The notes below the pieces were generated by a model. It saw nothing but the letters and a program-made list of their open reading frames with translations, was not told where the DNA came from and searched no databases. A DNA stretch of 64,000 nucleotides from Hemileia vastatrix (Eukaryota > Basidiomycota > Pucciniomycetes > Pucciniales > Zaghouaniaceae): positions 42,170,797 to 42,234,796 of the forward strand of contig JASXTE010000004.1 of NCBI GenBank assembly GCA_030280995.1, read 5' to 3'. The position numbers and the translations under genes are program-made. Shown here piece after piece: positions 1 to 16,614 of this stretch (position 1 is its first letter; each line of letters opens with the position of its first letter).

Positions 1-1062
1 TCCACTTGCATTGATACCACTTTGGTTTCAGCAAAGTTCATCACAGGGATGCTCAACAGGCTTAGAATTACCGTCCAGAGAATCAATACTACTAAAATCA
101 TTGACAACTTTGATTTCGATTACGAACTTTCTAACCCTGAAGAAAATATCAAAAGATGAGGTGAAAGATTTAGAAAACCTTCTTTTTGAATACCGTCAAT
201 GTCTTCAGAGTGGATGGAAACATCAAAGGATAAAGCCAAACCTCCACCTAACTCAGCATTTCCCTGATGTGATAAAACGATTTGGGCCACCTGCTTATAC
301 TGCCACATGGGCAGCTGAAAGAATAAATGGTAAACTTTCAAGTATTTCAAATAATCATCATTCTTGTATGTCAAAATAAAAATTTTCATTGAATATTTAA
401 CAATTATTAATATCATATTTTGTATGTAAGATGAGATACCAAAAACGATTCTCAAGTATTGGCATGTCAAGACAGTTCTAATGCAGTATGAAAAAGAAGA
501 AAACATGGAGCTAAACAAAGATGAAAAAATGACGAAAGATTTGGATAGTGTGAAAGAGTGTATTACGCTGGATGAAGCAATTTTTCAAAAATGGGCAAAA
601 GCACGAATTGGAAAAGATAGTTTAAGACGGCATTTGTCATTATCAGAGATCAAAGTTGAAAGAGTGGTGCAAGTACTCAGAAGCTTTGTGTTAAAAGGAA
701 AACGATTTATGACGAAATCTAAGCATGAAGGTAACTCAACAATCGAATTCAAATATTGTGATGATTGGAGTTTTGGTCAGATTGATATGTTATTCACATC
801 AAAAGAGGACAAGGGAGAGGTTTGGGCGATTGTTAGTCCTTTCAAAGAAATCCTGCCTAGCGAAACACACAAGGATCCTTATGAGAGTCATACTCTTCTA
901 AATAGCAGAGTACTCAGGGATTCTAAGGCCGCCGCTATTGTTGTAAGTGAAAAGTCGATAATAGGACATGCAGCTATCCTGAAACATCAGCGAGGAACTT
1001 TTGGTATGAAAGAAAAGATTATCACGGCTGTTGGGTTGAGGTCCATTGTAAGTCAAAACTAA
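1..1062 (+). CDS. Tnp2/CACTA-type transposase, C-terminal part (truncated by window edge)
   Basis: The first exon is open from the window edge to 329 and ends in a PNLHLTQHFPDVIKRFGPP ... ERIN stretch. This matches the 'PNxHxxxH...FGP...ERxN' block (DUF4218-like) at the C-terminus of basidiomycete Tnp2/CACTA transposases. A GT-AG intron at 330-430 (phase 1) joins it in frame to 431-1062, which encodes about 210 residues including FKYCDDWSFGQIDMLFTSKE and ends at TAA. The catalytic core would lie to the left of the window. Both exons are free of internal stops, so decay is not visible here. The family assignment rests on the conserved block only. The downstream genes may be companions within the same element, but no terminal repeats were identified. 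Confidence 0.6.
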
Positions 1063-1594
1063 TTACTCTGAATAGAAGCAGTTTGAGTTAATTTTGATCC
1101 TTTGGCATTTGAAAGGAGTGGTAATGCAAGCAAAGTGATGAATGGCACAATTTTGGGTGGAGAATGGGAGAATAAAGATTTTTTTGATTGAGCAATGCCT
1201 TAACAATGTGATATAAAAAAATAGTTGCATAATTCCAAACATCACTCAGCATTATGAGATATCAAACATGAATTTGGTAGGAATTCGACAGAGATAAAAA
1301 AATTTAGAAAAAGTAATAAGTAAGGTGGGAAGTATAAATAATACTCATTTCAGTTTAGGAAGGCAATTTTCAAGCCCAATTCCAAAACTCTTTATAAATT
1401 TTTCTCTGATTAATTAACAACACTTTTAAAAAAATTATTGTAAAGGATTAAAATATGGACAAAGATTTTGATATGAGTAAGACATTGTTATCTACTAAAT
1501 CATTCTGCCAAGTTAATAATTTGATATTTCTAATTTGACTTCAATTTCACAAAAAATAGGTCAATTGTTAAATTCTATTATTGATAATGGAACT
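1063..1594. other. intergenic, no gene seen
   Basis: AT-rich spacer between the Tnp2-like gene and the next gene. An ATG at 1455 opens a 27-codon frame that ends before the downstream gene and does not splice into it in phase. It could belong to the 5' leader. Confidence 0.4.
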
Positions 1595-3179
1595 ATGGAT
1601 ATGGATGTGGAATACGAGACTCCAAATCCAGAAGCTAAGGATGGTAACAGTAACCCCCACGCTGGTCCTTCTACATCTACATCTAACGACCAAAGGCAGA
1701 AAAATACTCCGCATCAAAATCGAGAGGAACAGACGAATCAAAATGGGGCTGCTAAGAATGCTGAATTTGTTGCCGGGTTACTGAATGATTTCCTGCCCAA
1801 GAATACTGAACAAAATCCAGATGAACCTGAATTTTCTAGTTGAGTACTTGAAATTATTTTGATAAATGCAAATGTACTTTTAATGACTGATTTAATTTTT
1901 TTCCCTGTTTTGTAGGCACTTTTGATCCAAAGCTACGAAATAATTTTAAGGAGCAAAAAAGGAAAGCGGCTGAGAGAAGAACAGCAGAGGGTCGTCAAGA
2001 AAAAGTCATAAAATCCATCTCAAAAGCAAGAAATGCACCCAGAAGTTCTGAAACAATCAGCCGAAATATTCATCACTTCTTAAGAGTGTGCCTGGGTGGC
2101 CCGACACAACTGAATCACTATCCAGAAAGCCCAACTGAAGAGGAGGTTAAAAATTGGCTTAATTGGACTCAGAACAAAAAGAATCTACTTCGACAGGCAA
2201 TTGAAAAGGTTTTCTCAATTCATCAGCCAAAAACTGCTGCTGATAAAGACTATTTAGCTAGAACTGCAGCTGCTCACATTGGAGCGAAAATTGGTTTGCC
2301 TGCTTTTCAGCCTACGAGTGATTTATTGAACATTCCTGGTGGTCCTCCTGTCCCGATGACATTGAAGAAAAATCTTGAGCGGGCTTTACAAGAAAAAGGA
2401 TTCCCGAGACTTACTTTTGAATGGTCATGCAAATCATTTTCAGGATCAGTCTGGAATCAAGTAGTATCGGCAATTTTGGCAGAATTTTCACTGACTTGGC
2501 TTAAGACGGTGAATTGGGTGGACGCAGAGAAATTCAAATTTATTTCCATTGTCATTGAACAGTGGGTTTTAAATAAAGGTAAAGAGTTGAGGAAGTATAA
2601 AGGAAGAAAAGATACTTCTCTTGCGGATATCAAGAAGATAAACCATTCCAAGGCACAAGTGCAAAGACACCGAAAAAAAGTGAGAATTTCCCCTAATCTT
2701 TCAAAATAAAAGCTACTTACAAGATATGATTTTATTTAACATTTTAGATAGCTGAAACACGTTGGACTATATCGGGTAAATACTGCCATGGAAATGAAGA
2801 TTTTATCGCCCTCTTTTTGACAACTGAATGCACATCAGATATCGAGGAAGAAAAAGAGTCTACAAAGCGGCCCATACGTGTAATACCTGCATGGAGAAGC
2901 CAACGACTCACTGAGTGTATCCATTTACTTGATAAAGTAGCATTTTCTTTAGCAACAAATCAAAGGGCTCTTCTCCAGTATAAAAAGACATATGAGCGCT
3001 CTTCTGAGAAAAAATCTTCAAAAAATGGTATAATTGGTGTTCCCCGAAATTTACCAAAAAATTTTTACTCAAGTGATTTTTTAAATAGTCTAAATAAGAT
3101 TGAAAGTGATATTCTTGCAGCTAAAAATGAAGTTGATTTAGAAAAGATTTATTCAAGCTTGAATAATTTATGTATATAG
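1595..3179 (+). CDS. three-exon gene of unknown function, 479 aa
   Basis: Exons 1595-1838, 1916-2679 and 2748-3179 join to 1440 nt (479 codons plus stop). The introns are 77 and 68 nt, with a GTTGAG donor and TTTTGTAG acceptor, then a GTGAGA donor and ATTTTAG acceptor. Both restore frame exactly, so the gene looks intact. The N-terminal ~80 residues are polar and low complexity (Asn/Gln/Ser/Thr). The middle is basic and rich in Lys/Arg and includes an FDPKLRNNF ... RKAAERR stretch. A folded-looking part follows (residues roughly 160-330) with ARTAAAHIGAKIGLPAFQP and the Trp-rich WSCKSFSGSVW. I do not recognise the family. It sits between a Tnp2-like gene and another unknown gene on the same strand, so an element-encoded companion protein is possible. 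The start is the first ATG in the open frame; an upstream exon is not excluded. Confidence 0.6.
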
Positions 3180-4480
3180 TTATACTTATAAGAAGCTCTT
3201 TCATATATCATATAAGAAATATATTGTTTACTGTAGATATTACATAGTTGTTCTTACAGGGGATTAATGCGAAAATTGTATTTACTAGCCGACCAGCTTT
3301 TTTCCTAATCTAATTATAAATAGTAAGAAAAAAAGTGTTTTATTTGTAAATATATCTTTAAATGTAAATGAGCCAAAAGTGCAGTGAAATGTTTTAAGTT
3401 TTAATCATCGGATTCTTATGATAGAACAATTAAGTGTGTGTAGGTTTGATTGAGACATACAGGTGCGTACCTGTGATATGTGCCGTGTTGGCACAAATGC
3501 ATTGGATAATCAAAGTGATCAAAGATATGCAATAGTGGAATAAAAAAGTCTAAGGATAATTTTACATTTAAGTACATGAATACTAGACAACCCAAGGTAG
3601 GTCAACCGGCATTAAGAAGTGAAAATTTGAAAGTGTATTCTTTCACTAAAAGCTAAGTTTCATTCCAATTTGAATCAATATGTTTAACGAATGTTCAATG
3701 TAATCTTGAATAACTGTTTTGATTTGGATTGAATATTTATATTAGCCATTGTATAATTTTTAAGGTGATTATGATGTGGCAAATTTTTTTTCCTAACAAA
3801 ATTTTGAAGTATATCACTTAAAAAATGTTTAAGTTTCTTGTAAACTTGTGCCAAACTCATGCTGAACTCTGGTTGAACACCGGTGGGAGCTTGTTGTGGG
3901 GCGAAGTTCGGTACATATTCAAACTTAGTCTGGTGAATTTTCCATAATTGTTTTTTTAATAGTTCAAGTGTATGGTGCATATGCCTAAGGCCATTTTAGT
4001 GATGTTCAATTCATTTTAAACGTTCTGCTTGAGGAATGTTAGAAAGTTTAATGTATGGAAAATCCTTTAATTTGAATTTTGCTCAACCAGCTGAAGTATA
4101 GTTATTAAAGGACTTAGTGCTTAGCTGGATAATTATTTACAATGCATGTTTAGTTTGAAATTTATTTCGCCTGTCTTTCCTTGAAAGGTATTCCCTAACA
4201 ACCAAACAATGGGGGTTGCATATGCAATCACAATTTTCAAATTGCACAATAGTTTGCTCAAGGAAAAACATTACCGTAACTTAAGAATGAAGGCTTCAAT
4301 AATTATATAAGGGAGTCTGATTTCAAAGTTTTTTCACATCATCCCACATTACTCTAAATAAAACGAAACATTATCGATTTCAAATATTTTCTCCATTTGC
4401 TAGATTAGTTAAATTTAAATAATTCATCTATTAATAAAGATTATTGTCCTCTTCATTCTAATTTTTTTTAATCTTATAGC
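3180..4480. other. intergenic spacer
   Basis: 1.3 kb of AT-rich sequence with no supported coding region. Only short inverted repeats such as GTGCC/GGCAC near 3480 were seen. It presumably holds the terminator of the upstream gene and the promoter of the next gene. Confidence 0.5.
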
Positions 4481-6862
4481 ATGTCAGACTCAAGTTCCGA
4501 GCTATCATCAGTCCCGTCTTCAGGTTGTAAGAAAAATGCAACACCATCACCCGGTTAGTAATAAGTCAGTGATAAAAAACTATTTATGTGAAAGCTTACT
4601 TTTCATTTTGTATGTAGATGCTCAAGCAATAAAAGAAAATTTCAATGAGACTGCCACTTTCGAAAAATTTTCACTCCAATCAAGCAATCCATTACAATCA
4701 ACATCTAGGGAGCCAGCACTTCAGTCAGAAATTATTGAGATTACGGCTGAAGAATACTATGAAAAACTCAATATGATGGAGGAACGAGCAGCATCTTTTG
4801 TTTGGGAGTTGGAAGAAATGAGAGTTCACAAGGCATATGTGGACTCAGCATCATCGTTTCTTAACTTTGTTAAACATCAAAAAAAATGTGAGTAATTTCA
4901 TACTTTAATTGTTATTGAATCTAAAACATTATTATTTATAATTATTAGCATATCTGGATACTAAGAAAGTTCCCGAAGATTCTCATATTAAGGTCAAGGA
5001 GGCACAAGAGTCAGAATCGGGTAGTGCTTCAAGAAATGTAAACAAGAGGTTGGATCATACTCATCGGACAAAAAGAGCACGTACCTCATTAAGCTCCTCA
5101 TTGGTTCCAGAATATTCTTCATCTCCTACTCCTGATGGAGAAGAAGAATCTGAAAGACAAGAAGACCCAATGTTATCAAGTAATTCGTAAGTATAATTTT
5201 AATCATACAACTTTCATGAGATATACTGATATCCCTTCTCATAAACTATTGTCGTGCAATTTAACTTTAGGAAAAACGATCAAGGTGAATCTGCAGCAGG
5301 TAAAAGATGAATATAATATCATAGCTGATAATTTAAAATTTATTTTGTGAAACTGACACATTTCTTTTTATAATATTTACAGACATAGATGCAGAAAATT
5401 CACAAAAGAAAAAAGAAACACCAATCATTGCCAGTGACGATCACAACAGAGAGATATCATCTGCGGCTGAAGAAACAACTGCAAGGGATGATGCGGTACC
5501 ACATTCTCAAACGGAACCGTTAAGTATGTGTATTTAATATTTTTATTCAAAAAAAAATGTGGCTAAATGTTTAACATTTCTGTAGTATCTTCTGCATCAA
5601 AAGAGCCGTCCTTGTTGAAAGATATGAATTTAAAATCAGATATCAAAGAACTTTATTATTTTTTTGAAGGAAAAATCAGCTGGCAAAAGGTGAACAAGGC
5701 ATGTAATGCAATCACATTCTTTCTGAATTTTCGAGGAACGGAGAAGATTTTAACACCGTCGTTTGATGCGTTCTCGTTTCATTTCACCCAAGGCACTCAT
5801 GCAGAATGGGTTAAAGTCATCAATGAATTGGGTAATTTCTTCACTATTGAAAATATAATTTTTGTATTTATTAACTTTATGACTCTTATTGTAGGCCCTC
5901 AATTTTTGGATTTAAATGAATCTACGCAACCATGGTACTCGACCGATCAAATTGACTTTTCAAAACTTGCCGAGTTCAATGCAAAATCATTGAATGAAAC
6001 TTATGGGGACTTGTGCAAAAAGAAGACATCAAATCCAGAAACCCACCTGTTTCGTTTGCTTAGTCGATGTCAATTTGTCAGCCCACATTCTCAACAGTAC
6101 TGGTCGACACTGATTGCCTCGTCTCTAGAGTTAATGGCAAACGAAACACATCAGGCACCTCCACCCGAAATGATTGAGAATGATGATCCGGTAACACGAA
6201 GTCTTCTATTAATCGATCATATTGACAAACTTATGAACAAGACTCCACCAATTTCGAGTTCAGCAAGTGAGATGAAGAAGTACAAAGCCATGACCAACTC
6301 AATGACGCCGCTTTTACAATTTCAAAATGTCATATCCAACTGTTTGAAGTCATACTTGTCATTGTATGCAAGATCACAGGCGAAACCGAAAACAGCTTCA
6401 GAAAAGCGGAAAAGAAAAGAAAAAGACGGTGGACAATTGATTCAGTCTGGATCCAACAATGCAGAAGAAAGGTCACTGATTCAGATTGAACAAAGCACAG
6501 CAAATCATAACTTTCAACCTTTTATTATGTATTTGATAGATGGGGTAAGGGGTTTATTTATATGTTCGCATGATTATAGATTTGCAAGTATCAGTGATTG
6601 TTTAGCATTTATAAGTCAGGTTGATTGTATTCGCAAAAAAAGTAATTGCTTATTTAATTCAGAAGAACGTATATGGAAGAATCTCAATAGCTACATCATA
6701 GGTCTTTTTTACAAAATTATCAAAAATCCAGCAAACACGAAAGACTTCTGTATGCCATCACACTTGGAAATAGCTCGTGCAATAACTGCTGATTTTTTGG
6801 ATCATTGGAAAATAGTCCAACCTGATACATATTTTTTTCAAACTCCAAGTATTAAAGAGTAA
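4481..6862 (+). CDS. eight-exon gene of unknown function, 629 aa
   Basis: Proposed exons are 4481-4553, 4618-4887, 4949-5186, 5271-5299, 5383-5523, 5586-5831, 5895-6544 and 6620-6862. They total 1890 nt, exactly 630 codons. Introns are 61-84 nt with GT donors (GTTAGT, GTGAGT, GTAAGT, GTAAAA, GTATGT, GTAATT, GTAAGG) and AG acceptors; exon 4 is a 29-nt microexon. The last two introns are multiples of three and contain no stop, so they are less certain. The N-terminal third is Ser/Glu/Thr-rich and disordered-looking. It has a basic RTKRARTSL cluster, and KRKRKEKDG occurs further on, so a nuclear location is plausible. The C-terminal part is ordered (RLLSRCQFVSPHSQQYW; FCMPSHLEIARAITADF). No family was recognised. 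Consistent splicing phases across eight exons argue for a functional gene. Confidence 0.65.
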
Positions 6863-7500
6863 ATATTGATTATATTTATATAAATAGATGCTATACTTGA
6901 TATAATATTGATGTAAATAGCTACAATAATATGAATATTTCAAAATAATAATAATAAAATTAAAAATTAAAAAAATTTGGAAATAAGAAATATGCAAGAA
7001 TTGTGTAAAATGTGCAATAATTATAATACATGGATTAAAAATAAATGTGAATAATAATAAATATGAGGTATGCAAATGAAGTGTGGAAAGATGGAAAAAT
7101 AAGAATTATAAACAACTTTAAAAAATAAGATGACAGTTATAAATGTATTAAATGAGTATAAAGTGTTAGAAAAGAAGAATAGGTAATTGAAAAAACATCA
7201 ACAATTAAATATGAAGTACAGAATCATAAAAAATGTAAAAACTCATAAGTCGAATGATTAAATGATATATTCATTCATAGAAAGAAAGCAGCAGTGTTAT
7301 TCCTGATAATAATAGAAGTATACAAAGGCAAGGAATAATGAATATAATATACTCATCAAAAATATAATTAGATGAAGAAAAGAGAAAGAATAATGTGAAC
7401 ACATTCAAATTAAAAAATGTGTACTCTAACCTATAATGGTAGTTAAGGGTAATCCAAATTGATATTCCAAAACAGATTGAAATAGAAGCAAAAAAACACA
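6863..7500. other. AT-rich spacer
   Basis: No gene seen. A/T runs and simple sequence lead into the palindrome array. Confidence 0.5.
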
Positions 7501-8190
7501 AGTGTACCCTGATCTTCGCGCGAAGACCAGGGTACACTTCTCAAAATCTCTGATACAAATTTTATCAAGGCCAATATACAATGGTGGACTCTGATGTTCG
7601 GCCGAAGATGAAGGTCCACCTCTTCAAATATCACTGAACACATGGTTGCAGGCAAAAATACCATGGTGTACCCTGATCTTCGGCCAAAGATCAGGGTTCA
7701 AGTCTTCAAATTTCAAGAAATATTTGAATAGGAGAAAAAACATATGTACCCTGATCTTTGTGTGCAAATCAGGGTACACATCTTCAATTTTCACACACAA
7801 TGTGTAGGAAGGCAAAAATACAATGGATGCCTCTGATGAAGGTGTTAGAACAAGGGTCATTTATTTTCAAATTCATGAACAATTTGAATACAGGGAAAAA
7901 TGAAAGGTGAACCCTGATCTTCGCGCGAAGGTCAGGGTACACATCATCAATTTTCATGTAGTTTTTGAATAACGGCAAAAAAACACATGTGTACCCTGAC
8001 CTTCGTGCGAAGATCAGGGTTCACTTGTCTAAATCTCACATACAATTTAGTCCAGGTAAAAAATACAAAGGTGGACTCTGATCTTTGCCTGAAGATCAGG
8101 GTACACATCATTAATTTTCATGTACTTTTTGAATAACAGCAAAGAAACACAAGTGTATCCCTGATCTTCGCGCGAAGATCAGTGTACACT
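7501..8190 (+). repeat. left arm of 690-bp inverted repeat
   Basis: Nine palindromic units with unique spacers. The arm is repeated in reverse complement at 8702-9391, roughly 95% identical by eye, with a 511-bp centre (8191-8701). The inner part 8186-8348 is also a direct copy of 7535-7698, indicating a higher-order period of about 650 bp. Confidence 0.85.
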
Positions 8191-8701
8191 TCTCAAAATC
8201 TATGATACAATTTTGATCAAGGCCAATATACAATGGTGGACTCTGATCTTCCGCTTGTGAAGAAGGTCTACCTCTCTGAACACATAGTTGCAGGCAAAAA
8301 TACCATAGTGGACCCTGATCTTCAGGGAAAAATCCGTGTACACCTCTAAATTTTTTTTCATATAATTTAAAATAATGCAAAAATACAATGAAGGAATCTG
8401 ATGTTCCCCTGCAGGTAAGATTTTCCTTGAAAGATTATTAAGTGAAGTTAAAATATACTTTCGAAAACCACATGTAAATCTTGACCTGTGCAGATTAATC
8501 ATGGTTGGTTTGTTATAATTTATACATGAACAAAATTACTTCAAATTCTAACAATCAAAGACTATATATCATATTATTTTATATTAACTAAAATAACAGT
8601 GTTCATCTTTGAATTTGGAATAGTTGACCTTTATTGTTTGCTTTAGATGGATGCCCACCTGTGATTTTTACTCCTACTCATATGTTGTTGAAATTTGAAG
8701 A

Positions 8702-9391
8702 GGTGTACCCTGATCTTCGCGCGAAGATCAGGGATACACTTGTGTTTCTTTGCTGTTATCAAAAAGTACATGAAAATTAATGATGTGTACCCTGATCTTC
8801 AGGCAAAGATCAGAGTCCACCTTTGTATTTTTTACCTGGACTAAATTGTATGTGAGATTTAGACAAGTGAACCCTGATCTTTGCACGAAGGTCAGGGTAC
8901 ACATGTGTTTTTTTGCCGTTATTCAAAAACTACATGAATATTGATGATGTGTACCCTGATCTTTGCGCGAAGATCAGGGTTCACCTTTCGTTTTTCCCTG
9001 TATTCAAATTGTTCATGAATTTGAAAATAAATGACCCTTGTTCTAACACTTTCATCAGAGGCATCCATTGTATTTTTGCCTTTCTACACATTGTGTGTGA
9101 AAATTGAAGATGTGTACCCTGATTTGCACACAAAGATCAGGGTACATATGTTTTTTCTCCTATTCAAATATTTCTTGAAATTTGAAGACGTGAACCCTGA
9201 TCTTCGGCCGAAGATCAGGGTACACCATGGTATTTTTGCCTGCAACCATGTGTTCAGTGATATTTGAAGTGGTGGACCTTCATCTTCGGCCGAACATCAG
9301 AGTCCACCATTGTATATTGGCCTTGATAAAAAGTGTATCAGAGATTTTGAGAAGTGTACCCTCATCTTTGCACGAAGATCAGGGTACACAT
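8702..9391 (-). repeat. right arm of 690-bp inverted repeat
   Basis: Reverse complement of 7501-8190, palindrome for palindrome and spacer for spacer. Further palindromic units continue outside the arm at about 9450-9487 and, degenerate, near 9530-9567. Confidence 0.85.
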
Positions 9392-9567
9392 GAGTGGGTT
9401 TACCACTATATTGTTTGCTTTTAACACATTGTTATTAAAAATTGAAAAGGTGCACCTTGATCTTAAAGCAAAGATCAGCGTAAACATGTGTATTTTTGCT
9501 TCAATTCAAAATGTTTATGAAATTTGTAGAAGTGTGCCTTGACCAGCAGCCGTTAATCAGTGTCTGT

Positions 9568-10194
9568 CCTGTTATTTTTACCTGCTGAAATTGTCCTATC
9601 CTTTAATCACATCATTAATAATATTTTCTTAATAATCACATCTATATTAATATTTACCATCCTTCAACCTCCTTGAAAATTTATTCATCATTTATAATTC
9701 CTTGATAATATTTTCTTTGTATCTCCTTATTTGATCATCTTCATATTTATTTTACCATGTACTTTAACATCTACATAAGATTCTATTATATTCTCTAGTT
9801 TTATGTTACTGTGCTTGTGCTATCTATGTCATTTTAATGACTTCACTATCAACTACATATCTCTCCTTCAGTCTCAATACATCAATATACATTGTTAACA
9901 AAACCCTTTTACATATGATTACTCCCTTTTTGTAAACTTCACTATCTCTCTCTATACTGCTTTTCTTAATTTAGTGGGACCTCATTATTCAATTTCTTTC
10001 TGGTGCTCTCACATAGATCCTTATATACACATACCTCCATAACCTTTTTTTATAACATTCTTTACCCTCATTTTGTTCCTTCAACCCACAGCCATCACTT
10101 TACTCTACCTTTTCACACTACTTTTTCAAAGTTTCAGAACCTACATATGATATACTCAGTATTTTCATCTTTTAAAAAATGCTTAATATTATTT
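9568..10194. other. spacer, pyrimidine-rich on the plus strand
   Basis: C/T-rich AT sequence with no supported gene. It is presumably the 3' flank of the minus-strand dioxygenase gene. Confidence 0.4.
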
Positions 10195-11453
10195 TTATTT
10201 AATATTGTTCTTACCATCTCTTTTCTTCTTAAGAGAATTATCAACACTTTTCTGATAAGTTATGAGTTTTTCATGATCCTTATCTGCCAGATTTTCGTTT
10301 TGTAGTGTCGTTCTAATTTTTTCTTTTAATAATTTTAGCTTTGTCGTTTTGTCTTTTGTTGCAATGTACTGTGGAACGTCTATTCCTAGAAGAGAAAAAA
10401 TTTCAAGTCCTTTGAATAGCTTCTTGGAAACTTGAATTGATGATCCCAGACGTGTGAACCCTTCTTCCTCATTACATTTTGACGTGTAATGCAGTACTTC
10501 ATTCGCTGGCCAAAGTATCAACCATAGTCCATCACAGTTGTTGAAGTTTATTTTCGTCTCCAACTCTGGGAAAATAAACTCTCCTCCTTCTTGTCGTGGT
10601 TTATTCTTATTGTATGGGCGCTCATCGAGTTCATTTTTATACGTATTTTTGGGGTATCAAATCCCAAATGCATATCGACTCCCATCCCTATCGCAGTGCG
10701 GAGTGTTACTGTATCCATTACCATTAATCCCCGTGGTCCATGTCAGATTTCCAAAAAAAGAGTCCTCTTCCTCTTCCCAACCCGGTATATTTAACTCTTT
10801 TGACAATACCCGTGCTTCCTCATATAACTTCTTGGACAACAACTGAAAGAAAAATCTATAAAAAATTGATAATCGTTTTTTTGCTTGATCTCTTTCAGCT
10901 TTTGTAATATTTTTGTTCACATATTGCCCTAATACAGTCTATTAATGTTTAAATAATTGGAAAACATGAAAAAATGCTTACTTAAATCGAGAGGAATCGA
11001 GCATCCCATCAAAATTCCTTCAGCAAACATTACTCCACTTTCTTGTGGTCCGTTACATGAGACCACATGCTCCAAAAGTTGAAGATCTCTCATGGCCTGT
11101 CTCATATCGTCAAGTTTATTGAGCATTTTTAACTGCTCCAACGAAATCGATGATATAATTATTGGTCGTACACCTCTTTTTCTGGGCTGGATGAAGTATG
11201 TTCCCTCATTCAGCTGCTTGAAATCTTGTGGGTCTAATGCTCCATATTGTGTCTTGTGTATCGGTTTTACTTTCAATTGTCTACCAAACATCAGATTTCC
11301 TTCTATTACACTAATTCCCCCCTCTTCTGCTTCTTTACTTGCCATAATATTTCTTTTTCCATTTTTGTTTGGATGTTTTTTCTTCCCTGCCCTTCTCCCT
11401 CGATTTTTTCCTTTACCATCCTTTCTCACAAAGTCTTCTTCTGAATCACACAT
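10195..11453 (-). pseudogene. TET/JBP-like 2OG-Fe(II) dioxygenase with one in-frame TGA
   Basis: ATG at 11453. Exon 1 is 11453-10982 and exon 2 is 10928-10195, separated by a 53-nt intron (GTAAGC...TTAG), giving 402 codons. A single TGA at 10659-10657 (codon ~248, AFGI-stop-YPKN) interrupts an otherwise open frame; a TGG-to-TGA change would explain it. Residues 1-45 are Lys/Arg-rich. The C-terminal half has the rust 'Tet-like 2OG-Fe(II) oxygenase' layout: HxD iron ligands in SNTPHCDRDGS (~235-237), a GGEFIFP strand, a distal His in EVLHYTS (~304) and a cosubstrate-type Arg in FTRLGSSIQVSKKL (~317). This superfamily oxidises 5-methylpyrimidines in nucleic acids; activity here is inference. Basidiomycete TET/JBP genes are known to be expanded together with transposons. 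It is flanked by hairpin arrays and preceded by a spliced leader with hairpin-bearing introns. Confidence 0.75.
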
Positions 11454-11550
11454 GGGTTACTCTACTAAAACTTCGATTCAGATATAAATTCATGGTCAGT
11501 ATATGACTTCTCAATCATTTAAATTACATAAATTAAATGTTTGAGTTGAA

Positions 11551-11626
11551 ATAACATGATTCAGAGTCTAAGAGGGGCAATAATGCTCTAACAACATGCT
11601 CGCTGCATTAAACCTCAATCATGTTA
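11551..11626 (-). ncRNA. intronic hairpin RNA candidate, copy 5 of 5
   Basis: Inside the intron 11686-11465, the one nearest the TET/JBP ATG. Outer stem ATAACATGATT/AATCATGTTAT with an identical interior (AGAGGGGCAATAATGCTCTA). The middle of the basal stem is imperfect. Confidence 0.5.
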
Positions 11627-11799
11627 TTTCATACTAATCAAACACTAGACAATTTTTTGTTATAAAATGAAGATACTTTGACATACATTAATTTATTTTA
11701 ATCCAAAAATTTTCAACCTCCTATTTTGTAACCAAAAAAAACAAGAACGAAACGTTAATTAAAACTCAAATGAAATTTATTACTTTTAAGTTATCATTG

Positions 11800-11870
11800 C
11801 ATGAATGAGTGACTAAGAGGGGCAATAATGCTCTAACAGCACGCATGCTGCATTAGTCATAAATCACATA
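11800..11870 (-). ncRNA. intronic hairpin RNA candidate, copy 4 of 5
   Basis: Inside the intron 11926-11721. The basal stem is TGACTAA/TTAGTCA. The sub-hairpin that reads ATGCTCGCTGCAT in other copies is GCACGCATGCTGC here, again with pairing retained. Confidence 0.5.
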
Positions 11871-12050
11871 ACATTTACTATTCCCATAACTTCAAGAGAA
11901 CAATTAACAAAAAAAAATCCACATACTTTCGTTAATATTCCAGTTGTTGTTGTGTACAGAAGAAAATCTGTAATACAAAAATAAAAATAAAATAAAAAGT
12001 ATTAGTACAAATAATTACTATATCTAAACAATCTCTTGTCTAAATATTTT

Positions 12051-12120
12051 TTGATTGAATGACTATGAGCAACAATATTAAATTCACAACACTATCGCTG
12101 CATCAGTCATCAATCATGTA
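12051..12120 (-). ncRNA. intronic hairpin RNA candidate, copy 3 of 5 (divergent)
   Basis: Inside the intron 12178-11968. The interior is diverged (ATGAGCAACAATATTAAATT on the plus strand), but ATTGAATGACT/AGTCATCAAT still pairs at the base and the CGCTGCAT segment is retained. Confidence 0.5.
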
Positions 12121-12300
12121 ATATATTACCCCAAATTACAAAATTAAATGTGAAGAAAACCTAAGATTACTTACATACTTTTTTTAAAACGTCTATTTGC
12201 CCTAACTATAACTGAACCTACATTAAACAAATGCCATCCAAAATTCATAATGTTAGTAAATATATCCATTATTTTATGAAAATCTGTCTAGTAAAAATTA

Positions 12301-12371
12301 TATGATTGAGGGTACTAAGAGGGGCAATAATGCTCTAACAACATGCTCGCTGCATTAGCCCTCAATCATGT
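12301..12371 (-). ncRNA. intronic hairpin RNA candidate, copy 2 of 5
   Basis: Inside the intron 12433-12218. The basal stem reads GATTGAGGG/CCCTCAATC, where copy 1 has GAGTT/AACTC. Both sides of the stem changed together, so pairing is kept while the interior sequence is unchanged. Confidence 0.55.
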
Positions 12372-12540
12372 AATATTTTCCCATTATGACAATTATAAAG
12401 TAATATTTTTAAAAATTATAACCATTTACATACATTTTATACCGTGCAGCTTCTGTTCCCAAATAAGAGCATGTAAAAGAAAATTAAAAAAAAATTAGCA
12501 AAATCTTTTATTTATTTAAAACATTTTTTTGTATATATTA

Positions 12541-12611
12541 CTTGATTGAGTTACTAAGAGGGGCAATAATGCTCTAACAACATGCTCGCTGCATTAGAAC
12601 TCAATCATGTA
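12541..12611 (-). ncRNA. intronic hairpin RNA candidate, copy 1 of 5
   Basis: Lies inside the intron 12668-12453. The basal stem is TGATTGAGTT paired with AACTCAATCA, then CTAA with TTAG. This encloses a conserved ~35-nt interior with two small stems (TGC/GCA and AGAG/CTCT on the minus strand). It is nearly identical in the interior to copies 2, 4 and 5. The functional class is not recognised. Confidence 0.55.
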
Positions 12612-12668
12612 ATAATACAAAAAATTTTAAAGAATTTTCTTTGATGGAAAAACAATAATTTTACATAC

Positions 12669-13343
12669 CTTTATTTACGCAATGATATAATTTTGAATCA
12701 ATAAATATTATTAAATAGATATGAGTGAAACAGAACCTGAAGAAAAAAATCCAAGTCAATTTCAGAACCACTCATACTACGTTTAACAATGTAAAATCAA
12801 TTCATTCATTCACTAAAATTATTTGTAATATTTACGTAACTCATCATGCCATATATCAAAAAATATATTTGCCTGAATAACATGCTCAAACCTTTCAATA
12901 GTAGTTTGTTTTTATTCACCAAATATCTTCAAGCAATCCAGGTAGATATTTTCTGGATGGCTGGCGGAAAAAAGAAGATGGGGTGCTATAAAATTGCACT
13001 CAGCTTGCAATTTCGCAAGAAAAAATAGTATCTGAAGTTGCAAAGGCAAAATTCCCCACAAGTATCTACAAAAATCATACTTGTTTCATGAATGAGCTAG
13101 GATAGACATATTTATCACACAAAAAGGTACAAATTTAATGTTAAGCTGTGTGGAAGGTCAAATTCAAATTCTTGTAGACCACTTGCTGCTAATCGATACA
13201 ATCCATGAACACATCTAGTCTTATATTTACTAGATTGAATGTCGAAAAATGTGATAGATATATATCACTTGCTTCCTAGCAATTAACTCACTCTTTGTTG
13301 GATGGAAACCAATCATCACATTATTATTTGCAGGGGGATACAT
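12669..13343. other. spacer between hairpin families
   Basis: AT-rich. It may contain the promoter and first exon of the minus-strand TET/JBP transcript. No coding region supported. Confidence 0.4.
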
Positions 13344-14434
13344 CCTGCTATCAAATTCCTGCCAGCAATCTTGAATGATATTCTTGCTGGAAGGTTACAA
13401 TGTTAATCAATTATTTTGACCACTTTCCAGCCATCGATTCAATATTTAGATGGCTGGCAAGCCAAAAATAGGTGCAAGTACCTGCCAGCCAGCAAATCGC
13501 TTGTAAGCTGACTGGCAGGTTGGGTGAATCAATGATTTTTTTAGCCCCTAATTTCATGCCAGCTAGAAACAAACCAATTCGGTTTCTGGCTGGCAGGGTA
13601 GCAGATTGAGTGGTTGGGGAAATGCATCAATTTCTACTTCCTTTCGGCAGGAAATATGATGCTTAGCTTGCTGGAAGGAATGAAGCAAATCTATGCTTTT
13701 GTGGAAACCTGAAAATGCCTGCCAGCCAGCTGAAAAGCATATCGCTTGCTAGCTGGCAAGTTGTGATTTCAATTGATCATATTTGATCAATTTGCTTGAG
13801 CAACTCGCTTGCTTCATGTCAGCAAGTTTAAAAAATATTGAGGGGAAGGAGATAAAAATTCATATTTGAGAAGATGATTTGCCTTCCAGCCAGCAGAAAA
13901 TGATTAACTTGCAGGCTGGAAGGTTGATGTAGCATGCAGTGGTAATCAATTGATCGATTGATCGATCGATCGATTGATCGATCGATCGATTGATCGATCA
14001 ATTGATTGATCGATCAATCAATTGATCAATTGATTGATTGATCGATCGACTTGACAGCTGCCTGTCAGCCATCCATACAGATTTTTTTTGGCTGTCAGGC
14101 AGCCGTCAAGTTGATCGATCGATCGACTTGAACGCTACATCACCCTACCAGCCAGCTGCGATGTGACTTTGTCGCTGGCTGGCAGGGATGTACAATTGAT
14201 TTGCTGTCTACATGCCAGACAGCTAGGCAGCAACTTGCTGTCTGGCATACAGCAAGCGATTGATTTTTGGGGGTGATGCTTGCCAGAAAAGGGTGGCAAG
14301 TGCCTTGCAAACTTGCACATGCCTGCCAGCCAGCTTAAAAGTAATTGGTATGCTGGCTGGCAGGGTCAGGATAAGAATTTTTTTAAGATGCCAGCCAGAC
14401 AGCGATTAAAATGACAGCTGTCTGGCAGGCACTA
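13344..14434. repeat. array of ~13 hairpins with CTGCCAGCCAGC-type stems
   Basis: Serial stem-loops share the arm CCTGCCAGCCAGC and its complement but have different 10-25 nt loops. They lie at about 13358-13394, 13428-13463, 13480-13522, 13557-13598, 13717-13760, 13880-13922, 14047-14120, 14144-14187, 14211-14246, 14277-14299, 14322-14366 and 14391-14430. The best is 14322-14366, with 13 paired bases around a loop of about 18 nt. The 14047-14120 hairpin has a ~22-bp imperfect stem. No ORF or transposon end explains the array. Confidence 0.8.
13945..14049. repeat. GATC/GATT palindromic microsatellite
   Basis: About 105 bp of alternating GATC and GATT tetramers (with AATC), self-complementary over its length. 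It lies within the hairpin array and abuts the long hairpin at 14047. Confidence 0.9.
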
Positions 14435-16160
14435 AGTGAGACAGGAGTTAAACAAACTAAATATAAGAATAGAAACGAAATAAAAAACAAAAAGAGGCAG
14501 GAAATGAAAATGAAAGAGAAATACAGGCCAAAAAATGAGAATGAGAGAGTGAAACGATATAAAAATAATTAAAGAGAGAAAAAAAGAGAGAAACAGTCAT
14601 TGATGAGCCACCCAAAAAAAAAACTTACTAATTAATTATTGACAGGTTCTGTAGGAAGTGATCAGAAGCAAGTCAAGGGGTCAAAGAGTTTGTTGGAGGA
14701 AGCGTAGGTAGTCCGTTTTTGATGAATAATGACAATTTAAGAATATCAAATTAAGACTCAGTCATAGAAATAAGTGAGGGCAAGCAAATAAAATGAGCAA
14801 ACTTCAGAGATGGATAATATGCAAATTTCAACGTCAAAAAACATTTGGCATGTAAATAAGAGTGATGTTCTGTCAAACAAAAATCCATGCATAATATTTA
14901 AATCTTTAAATTCAAAAAAAATATTTAATATTTCTTAATTCAATTTTAATCACCTACATTTCAATTTCTAACTATAGTTAGTTGAATATTTCTGATTTTG
15001 TAGAATAGAATGTACACTACCAACTCAAAAATGTTTGAACAATGACAAAAAAAAATTGAAAAAAATGATTTTGTGTAGAATTTATGATAACCATTGGTAA
15101 GTCAATGATTAACTTCAATTATTTATTTAAATTTTTCCTATATCGGACATATCTTCTTTCAATTTCATACAATTTCAACCAGAATTGGTTATGAATTATA
15201 TGGAGAAGTTAATTGTAAATACATGATGACAGTGGCATTGTAACATAACAAGAAGCAAAAAAAAGAAGGAAAACTGCAGCATCAAAGATTATTGCATGAG
15301 AGGAACAATATTTGAAAATCTACCAGATTGAAAAAACAAATACCCCAACTAATGGGGCAGTGGGAGAGTGACAGATAAGACTTATAGTGTCAATGGGATC
15401 TTTAAGCTGTTGTGCTACTTTCAAAAGGCCACAGAATTGTTTTTGGTGAGCAGGAAAGGGGAGGATGACACATTCTTGATTATTTTTGGTCCATAAGGGG
15501 CTTATGAGGCAGTTTGGAGAAGGTGAAGCATTGAATTGGTTAAGGTACCTTTACAGGAGAATGGCCTGATAAAAATTGAATAAATTCCATAGCATGAGAT
15601 TAGGATAACCTTGTCAAAAATTTATACATACTGGCTGGGTCACAATTTCCCCTTAATTTTCAGAGTGGATTAGAATATGGGGGGTTAGGGGCCAGGAGAT
15701 AAAATTATTTTCAAGTATTATAAACATATTTTCACTTTTTTCCTGGTTGTTTAAATGTTTGTACAGATTATGTCTCCTCTTAATTATTATTCATTCACCA
15801 AAATTTATTCATATTATTTATAATTGTTCCTGTCTATCACTAATCATTTTTGTATATTAGCTATTATAAAGTTCTCCTGCTTATTTAATATTGAGAAAAA
15901 TGATATATTACAAGAATATTCTGAATGAGAAGATATTATAAGTAAAACTCTTCTTTTATACCTTTATAATAATAATTTTTTTTAGGGCATCATTGGCTTA
16001 TTTTCTTTTTTTTTTGGTAAACAACATTTATATAACAATAATCTGAAAAGTTGAAAACCCCAACTTGGAAATTTTATTGGACTGTCTAAAATGAAACTTT
16101 GTTTCAATTATTGAGAATGTGATTTCAACATGTTCTCAACAGATAATCATTTACTCATCA
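14435..16160. other. no gene recognised
   Basis: Begins with a purine-rich stretch (AAATAAAAAACAAAAAGAGG-like, 14440-14610), followed by AT-rich sequence without open frames of note. Confidence 0.4.
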
Positions 16161-16320
16161 GTGAGTGTTCACATGAGCTTCAAGGTGTGTTCAAAGTAAA
16201 TTCAATACTTCTTCATGATGGTTTCATCACTTCCTCAATGTGTGCTCAAAAAGATATGAATTAGGGTTCAAGGTTGCGGACTTGCTAGCAAGTCCGCCCC
16301 CCATATTGCGTGGTGAATGC
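16160..16320. repeat. MITE end with TTGCGGACTTGCTAGCAAGT core
   Basis: Contains the palindrome GGACTTGCTAGCAAGTCC followed by CGCCCCCCATATTGCGTGG. The same end occurs at 16615-16760, 45180-45312 and both ends of 53310-53570, so this is a terminal repeat of a DNA transposon or MITE family. Confidence 0.65.
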
Positions 16321-16614
16321 TTCAAACTTTTGCTTAAAAGGAGCTATAATTAAAAAGAACCACTGATCTTATTTTATATTTTTTCAGAAAAAAAAATAGA
16401 ATAAAATCATTAGAGAGGTTAAAAGTGAAGTTTTTGAAATAAATAGTATAATTTTCAGTCTTTTTAATGATCAAGTGAAATTCAAAATGAAAATGAAAAT
16501 GAGTTTTCTGAAAAAAATTTTTTGAATGGATCAGATTATTAATCTTCACTTGTTATTCTTTCTATAAATTATTCATTAAATTTTCACTATTATTCCAGCA
16601 CAGACTCATCCATT

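Follow-up and report, generated by a model that had tools for sequence, protein, structure and literature searches.

A transposon-borne array of intron-hosted hairpins, possibly a small-RNA cluster, in the predicted leader of a TET/JBP-like gene of Hemileia vastatrix

The window, which is the whole 64,000-nt stretch of Hemileia vastatrix DNA that was analysed, begins inside a multi-copy DNA transposon, here called E1. The right part of E1 occupies positions 1 to 16315, and its right end at 16315, which reads inward CACCACGC..., finishes in GTG. Six fetched copies match the window at 98.4–99.6% up to positions 16315–16323, after which their flanks differ, and one copy (c4) matches the window only from 754. 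On the left side, the sequence shared by the window and the loci L062 and L063 extends to −6028 or beyond, and copy c1 breaks at −5134, so that E1 measures no less than 22.3 kb. Across the 747.6-Mb genome, 687 candidates were obtained, and all 40 of the 40 that were scored matched at 99–100% over 91 nt. The array described below thus belongs to a repeat and not to a single-copy locus, a context that the original prediction had overlooked.

At the left edge of the window, positions 1–379 of the plus strand encode the C-terminal end of a Tnp2-type transposase (PF02992, 54.9 bits, cut-off 28.6), the remainder of whose frame lies to the left of the window in L027. Named relatives of this transposase include a protein of Puccinia striiformis (39% identity, 97% cover). 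A gene for a TET/JBP-like 2OG-Fe(II) oxygenase with at least two exons is found on the minus strand at 10195–11453, where two frames match PF20515 with 38.1 and 35.7 bits (cut-off 27), and it falls within the stretch common to the six copies. The TET-like frame is interrupted at 10195–10938 in the window copy, and nine other compared copies differ there. SNF2-related and helicase-C domains were identified at L027:333–2413 (window −7667 to −5587), and the copies share at least the 3′ (helicase-C) part of this SNF2-type gene. Thus, the TET-carrying transposon also seems, from its sequence, to carry a chromatin-remodeller-type gene. The pairing of a TET/JBP protein with a chromatin-remodeller-type protein is reminiscent of JBP2. 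Other long frames of E1 are located at 1891–3179 and 4419–6862, including a 431-aa open reading frame at 5567–6862, and the scanned frames of these two regions gave no Pfam match above cut-off. Palindromic arrays of 82-nt units are present at 7748–9389, in the interval that separates the 3′ side of the TET gene from an opposite-strand frame. Genome-wide, PF20515 gave 10,849 first-look candidates, of which 150 were scored, all above cut-off; these are candidates rather than confirmed genes, and their count would amount to a very large TET-like expansion in this genome.

Directly upstream of the TET/JBP-like gene, five introns are predicted in a row on the minus strand between 11465 and 12668, each hosting one hairpin. 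Intron 1 (12453–12668, 216 nt) hosts hairpin h1 and has CTAAT at 12498 and CAG at 12453; intron 2 (12218–12433, 216 nt) hosts h2, with CTAAC at 12256 and TAG at 12218; intron 3 (11968–12178, 211 nt) hosts h3, with CTAAT at 12005 and CAG at 11968; intron 4 (11721–11926, 206 nt) hosts h4, with TTAAC at 11758 and TAG at 11721; and intron 5 (11465–11686, 222 nt) hosts h5, with CTGAC at 11499 and TAG at 11465. The predicted splice sites enclose four minus-strand leader exons of 19 nt (12434–12452), 39 nt (12179–12217), 41 nt (11927–11967) and 34 nt (11687–11720). All five introns begin with a GTATGT donor, located 72, 76, 73, 71 and 76 nt ahead of the start of the conserved hairpin head, and only four other GTATGT sequences occur on the minus strand in the 21.45 kb examined. 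In all five, the predicted branch point lies 97–111 nt past the head start and the acceptor then follows. The introns contain 38 ATG in 1071 nt, while the predicted leader after splicing, 212 nt up to the TET start, contains a single ATG, which is created at a junction. The scarcity of ATG in the spliced leader relative to the introns provides independent support for the intron calls, and the five introns are likely real. Donor geometry and the ATG contrast bear out, as predictions, the original proposal of five tandem introns of 206–222 nt with GTATGT donors, and the two PF20515 scores agree with the placement of this leader directly before a TET/JBP-type gene. A pyrimidine-rich AG at 12737–12738, upstream of intron 1, suggests that the leader may begin farther upstream with an additional exon. 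More palindromic, GCCAGC-rich repeats are found upstream of the leader at 13400–14400.

The array comprises five 82-nt repeats at 11540, 11785, 12035, 12287 and 12526, whose spacings of 245, 250, 252 and 239 nt reproduce the 239–252 nt given originally, and each repeat forms the centre of a stem-loop whose head measures 43 nt. On the minus strand, h1 spans 12526–12630 (head 12554–12596), h2 12287–12383 (head 12315–12357), h3 12035–12125 (head 12063–12105), h4 11785–11875 (head 11813–11855) and h5 11540–11630 (head 11568–11610). Judged by the majority letters of ten copies, the heads of h1, h2 and h5 are identical, that of h4 has a few differences and that of h3, the most diverged, has many. 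The window h4 is closer to the other hairpins than the h4 of its sibling copies, via one private substitution. At the 3′ side of the head, a stretch of 24 nt is identical in four of the five window hairpins and is matched four times in the window, compared to none in 100 shuffles, in keeping with the earlier description of a hairpin interior that is nearly constant in four copies. When the five units were aligned with one another, the mean z was 10.7 for heads, 2.9–3.1 for stems, 0.13 for exons, 0.71 for the donor-side flanks and 0.78 for the acceptor-side flanks; the exons of 19–41 nt are indeed unrelated and the intron flanks unconserved, as had been stated. A model built from these five hairpins (R1) found only the same five at E<1e-5 in the window and had no match in L027, the DNA to the left of the window.

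Compared with 200 shuffled sequences, four of the five hairpins fold far better than expected (z of −5.19 for h1, −4.67 for h2, −5.01 for h3 and −7.00 for h5), while the fold of h4 is weak (z of −1.07) and was equalled by 31 of the 200 shuffles. The claim of a hairpin in every intron therefore stands for the five related heads and for the folding of four of them, but not for the folding of h4. In the basal stem, six pairs carry changes in both partners where 3.0 would be expected, and 19 of 500 shuffles reach six; the compensatory change originally proposed is thus present but modest. Consistent with pairing of these arms, 85.9% of the cells are paired, compared to 33.7–51.2% after the partner is slid, and upon swapping of arms only 2–7 of 120 permutations (the identity included, depending on arm length) equal or exceed the stability of the cognate pairing, in which h4 is again the weak member. 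We regard the basal-stem covariation as real but modest, and since five related sequences are few, it supports rather than proves a structured RNA. The minimum-energy fold encloses the head with 36 pairs in h1 and 25 in h2. The head itself can be modelled either as part of a long imperfect helix or as a local hairpin with GCAGC paired to GYUGU (25 of 25 cells paired), and head pairs are kept through G-U changes.

Comparison of ten young copies of E1 revealed variable columns at 15 of 442 hairpin positions and 18 of 762 positions elsewhere. In a set of five older copies that are 85–95% identical, for which changes common to three or more copies were counted, the shared changes numbered 8 in 215 positions of the heads, 6 in 243 of the stems, 15 in 746 of the remaining leader and 18 in 454 of TET exon 1. 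The heads thus changed no less often than the remaining leader, and by our reading several of the head changes in the older copies are at CpG sites. Purifying selection on the heads is not visible at the recent time scale. Relaxed pattern searches of the genome likewise gave no independent hairpin family indicating long-term use: one pattern returned five scattered 15-mers, about the level that we estimate for chance, and the other two places that are both within E1 copies (one inside L006; the other L064, 85.7% over 1.5 kb). The hairpin model matched none of the stretches upstream of four other TET genes (L058–L061) chosen from the 150 listed PF20515 matches. Those stretches contain long inverted repeats that are unrelated to the hairpin, such as the 240-nt arms of L060, which are 94% complementary. 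Exact fragments of the head were found neither in a viral-contig nor in a genome-contig collection, neither of which is expected to contain rust DNA.

Beyond the window, a 33-place pattern of the head matched 512 places in the genome, compared to 0 for the control. Among the first 100 of these 512 matches, the clusters of heads with the spacing of the array look like further E1 copies. Twenty solitary head copies were fetched, of which 18 had the flanks of a second element, E2, one was a hybrid and one was an old E1 copy. E2 is a 3.6-kb transposon with inverted ends (L049:1485–5085; also in L050 and L051), which we take from its open reading frames and ends to be Harbinger-like, and in which Pfam gave just one Myb/SANT-like match, below cut-off. 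It carries a 144-nt fragment of E1 intron 1 (12523–12666, minus strand; 100% identity in L031 and L049) that includes h1 and begins just past the GT of the intron 1 donor. The hybrid, L051, has a longer captured piece (14563–12523), and the E2 fragment was thus probably captured long and later shortened. Introner elements are structured, repeated and intronic, as the array is, and create introns by dispersed insertion into unrelated genes. The suggestion that the hairpins belong to a family of structured introner-like elements had to be abandoned: the 18 solitary copies with E2 flanks are one captured fragment hitch-hiking on E2, and no new insertion into an unrelated intron is found among the 20 solitary copies. 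It had also been held that head copies lying mostly outside introns would count against a structured intronic RNA; such a distribution would arise only via hitch-hiking on E2, and therefore it does not decide the matter.

Rfam gave no match in the window at the gathering threshold. Relaxing E to 10 added MIR397 and HOTAIRM1_3 alone for the array and, for an older copy, five matches including snoR30 and SNORA79, all far below gathering; a known RNA family was thus rejected as the identity of the hairpins. By eye, the alignment of the copies contains neither box C/D nor two hairpins with H and ACA boxes; a single hairpin is seen, and CTGA is not kept at its 3′ side. Together with the Rfam results, this is in line with the earlier remark that no C/D or H/ACA boxes are recognisable. 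The hairpin has what we take to be a resemblance to a twister-like ribozyme. This candidate was also rejected, as no ribozyme family appeared in Rfam up to an E of 10 and the accessible text of two papers (PMC6154101; PMC10085705) lends it nothing.

The 43-nt head has kept its sequence, in contrast to the drift seen in the stem, the other intron parts and the exons. This combination matches that of a host gene that yields its product from its introns, and we tentatively favor reading the array as a cluster of small structured RNAs that are hosted by introns and borne by a transposon, a reading to which we assign a substantial, though less than even, probability. For such a cluster, an intron-hairpin-exon unit would have been duplicated in tandem on the transposon, with selection then acting on the hairpin heads only. 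The leader would presumably be transcribed and spliced, as in small-nucleolar-RNA host genes; by the same analogy, each lariat would be opened and trimming would halt at the stem, and the output would presumably be five nearly equal RNAs of ~90–110 nt. These RNAs could next be bound by protein or undergo a Dicer-type cut; of these, we would put an RNA-protein particle ahead, since conservation lies in the head, loop included. Counting for a cluster of this kind are the similarity of the heads (10.7) against that of exons and flanks (0.1–0.8), the constant geometry, with donors 71–76 nt before and branch points 97–111 nt after the head start, the four well-folding hairpins with their double-changed pairs and preference for cognate arms, the density of ATG (38/1071 compared to 1/212), and the restriction of R1 matches at E<1e-5 to the five window hairpins, with none in L027. 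Counting against it are the lack of visible recent constraint, the poor fold of h4, and the absence of any RNA family match and of an independent hairpin family in the relaxed searches.

The position of the hairpins between donor and branch point in all five introns also fits the possibility that, like the zipper stems that are common in yeast introns (PMC12350175), they shorten the path from donor to branch point and thereby control the splicing of the TET leader and the removal of the 38 intronic ATG. For zipper stems, the linkers that join the stem to the 5′ splice site and to the branch point are reported to total 42–85 nt (PMC12350175), but the linkers here, which rest on branch-point predictions and a single minimum-energy fold, are 59 nt for h1, 86 for h2, 112 for h3, 117 for h4 (with the stem unformed) and 37 for h5, so that only h1 falls within this range; we consider such a role rather unlikely. 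The extensive pairing around the heads of h1 and h2 and the 24 identical nucleotides at the 3′ part of four heads would suit a polycistronic cluster of miRNA-like precursors, whose long imperfect stems Dicer would cut to ~22-nt RNAs, and four of the five hairpins are better precursors than chance. Rusts do produce miRNA-like RNAs from hairpin precursors (PMC8444563), but in the array the sequence of the best-paired part, the basal stem, is not conserved and the head, which is, pairs poorly, complementarity to either arm rises above the maxima obtained with shuffled arms neither in E1 and E2 nor elsewhere in the window, and mi/milRNAs within introns are very rare in fungi (PMC9757828). Thus, miRNA-like precursors are an unlikely explanation.

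Two readings without an RNA product also have low probability. The array could be an inert relic, that is, a duplicated older palindromic repeat whose heads resemble each other through local conversion or duplication; the copies indeed reveal no constraint, E1 has other palindrome-rich repeat arrays (7748–9389) and h4 folds poorly. Against such an origin, which we judge as improbable as miRNA-like precursors, the flanks have fallen to chance similarity while the heads stayed related and the geometry constant, and the stems show some compensatory change. Very improbable, in our view, is a cis element acting at the level of DNA, for example as binding sites of the transposase or the TET/JBP protein. 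Its tandem arrangement within a transposon and the retention of one copy by a second transposon family (18 of the 20 solitary loci fetched) would accord with binding sites, but the array is ~3.7 kb from the right end of E1 and inside predicted introns at a fixed donor distance in all five cases, and the preservation of head pairs via G-U changes fits RNA better than DNA.

A bolder extension of the favored intronic RNA cluster, which we consider distinctly unlikely, is that the transposon fights host silencing on two fronts, with the TET/JBP enzyme and with five copies of a trans-acting intronic RNA, one of which a second, unrelated transposon family acquired. In that case the RNA might, for instance, divert the silencing machinery as a decoy or assist the co-transcribed enzyme as a cofactor. 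If an array of noncoding RNAs is truly present in the TET leader, the product of the transposon would be more than protein, and the array would supply a structured-RNA family that is missing from Rfam. With 512 places in the genome carrying the head, reads should be easy to find by ordinary RNA-seq.

Among the titles and abstract openings listed by literature searches (up to 12 titles each), none describes such an array, which is not proof of its absence in print; the array looks like an undescribed small-RNA cluster. The intronic snoRNA host genes of fungi carry one structured RNA per intron in consecutive introns between unconserved exons. The array is like them in having one RNA per intron, several introns running and unconserved exons, and it differs from them in being built of single hairpins with no C/D or H/ACA anatomy and no Rfam match and in lying within a leader that belongs to a protein gene of a transposon. 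With the zipper stems of Saccharomyces it shares a stem between donor and branch point, from which it departs by agreeing with the reported linker rule in only one of five introns and by its conserved head sequence (PMC12350175). Similar to fungal miRNA-like loci, it has a long imperfect hairpin, but its conservation is in the poorly paired head and not in a well-paired duplex (PMC8444563; PMC9757828). The closest counterparts of E1 itself are the EnSpm transposons of rusts that carry TET genes and have CAC..GTG ends, and that are thought to evade methylation-based silencing (Kojima, 2025; PMC12730594). The main text of that paper contains neither "hairpin" nor "noncoding," and its three passages with "intron" concern gene prediction (PMC12730594). 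Consistent with those elements are the Tnp2/EnSpm-type transposase of E1 (PF02992, 54.9 bits), its internal TET/JBP gene and, at the right end, a CAC terminus, and E1 differs from them in also bearing an SNF2-type helicase gene, or at least its end.
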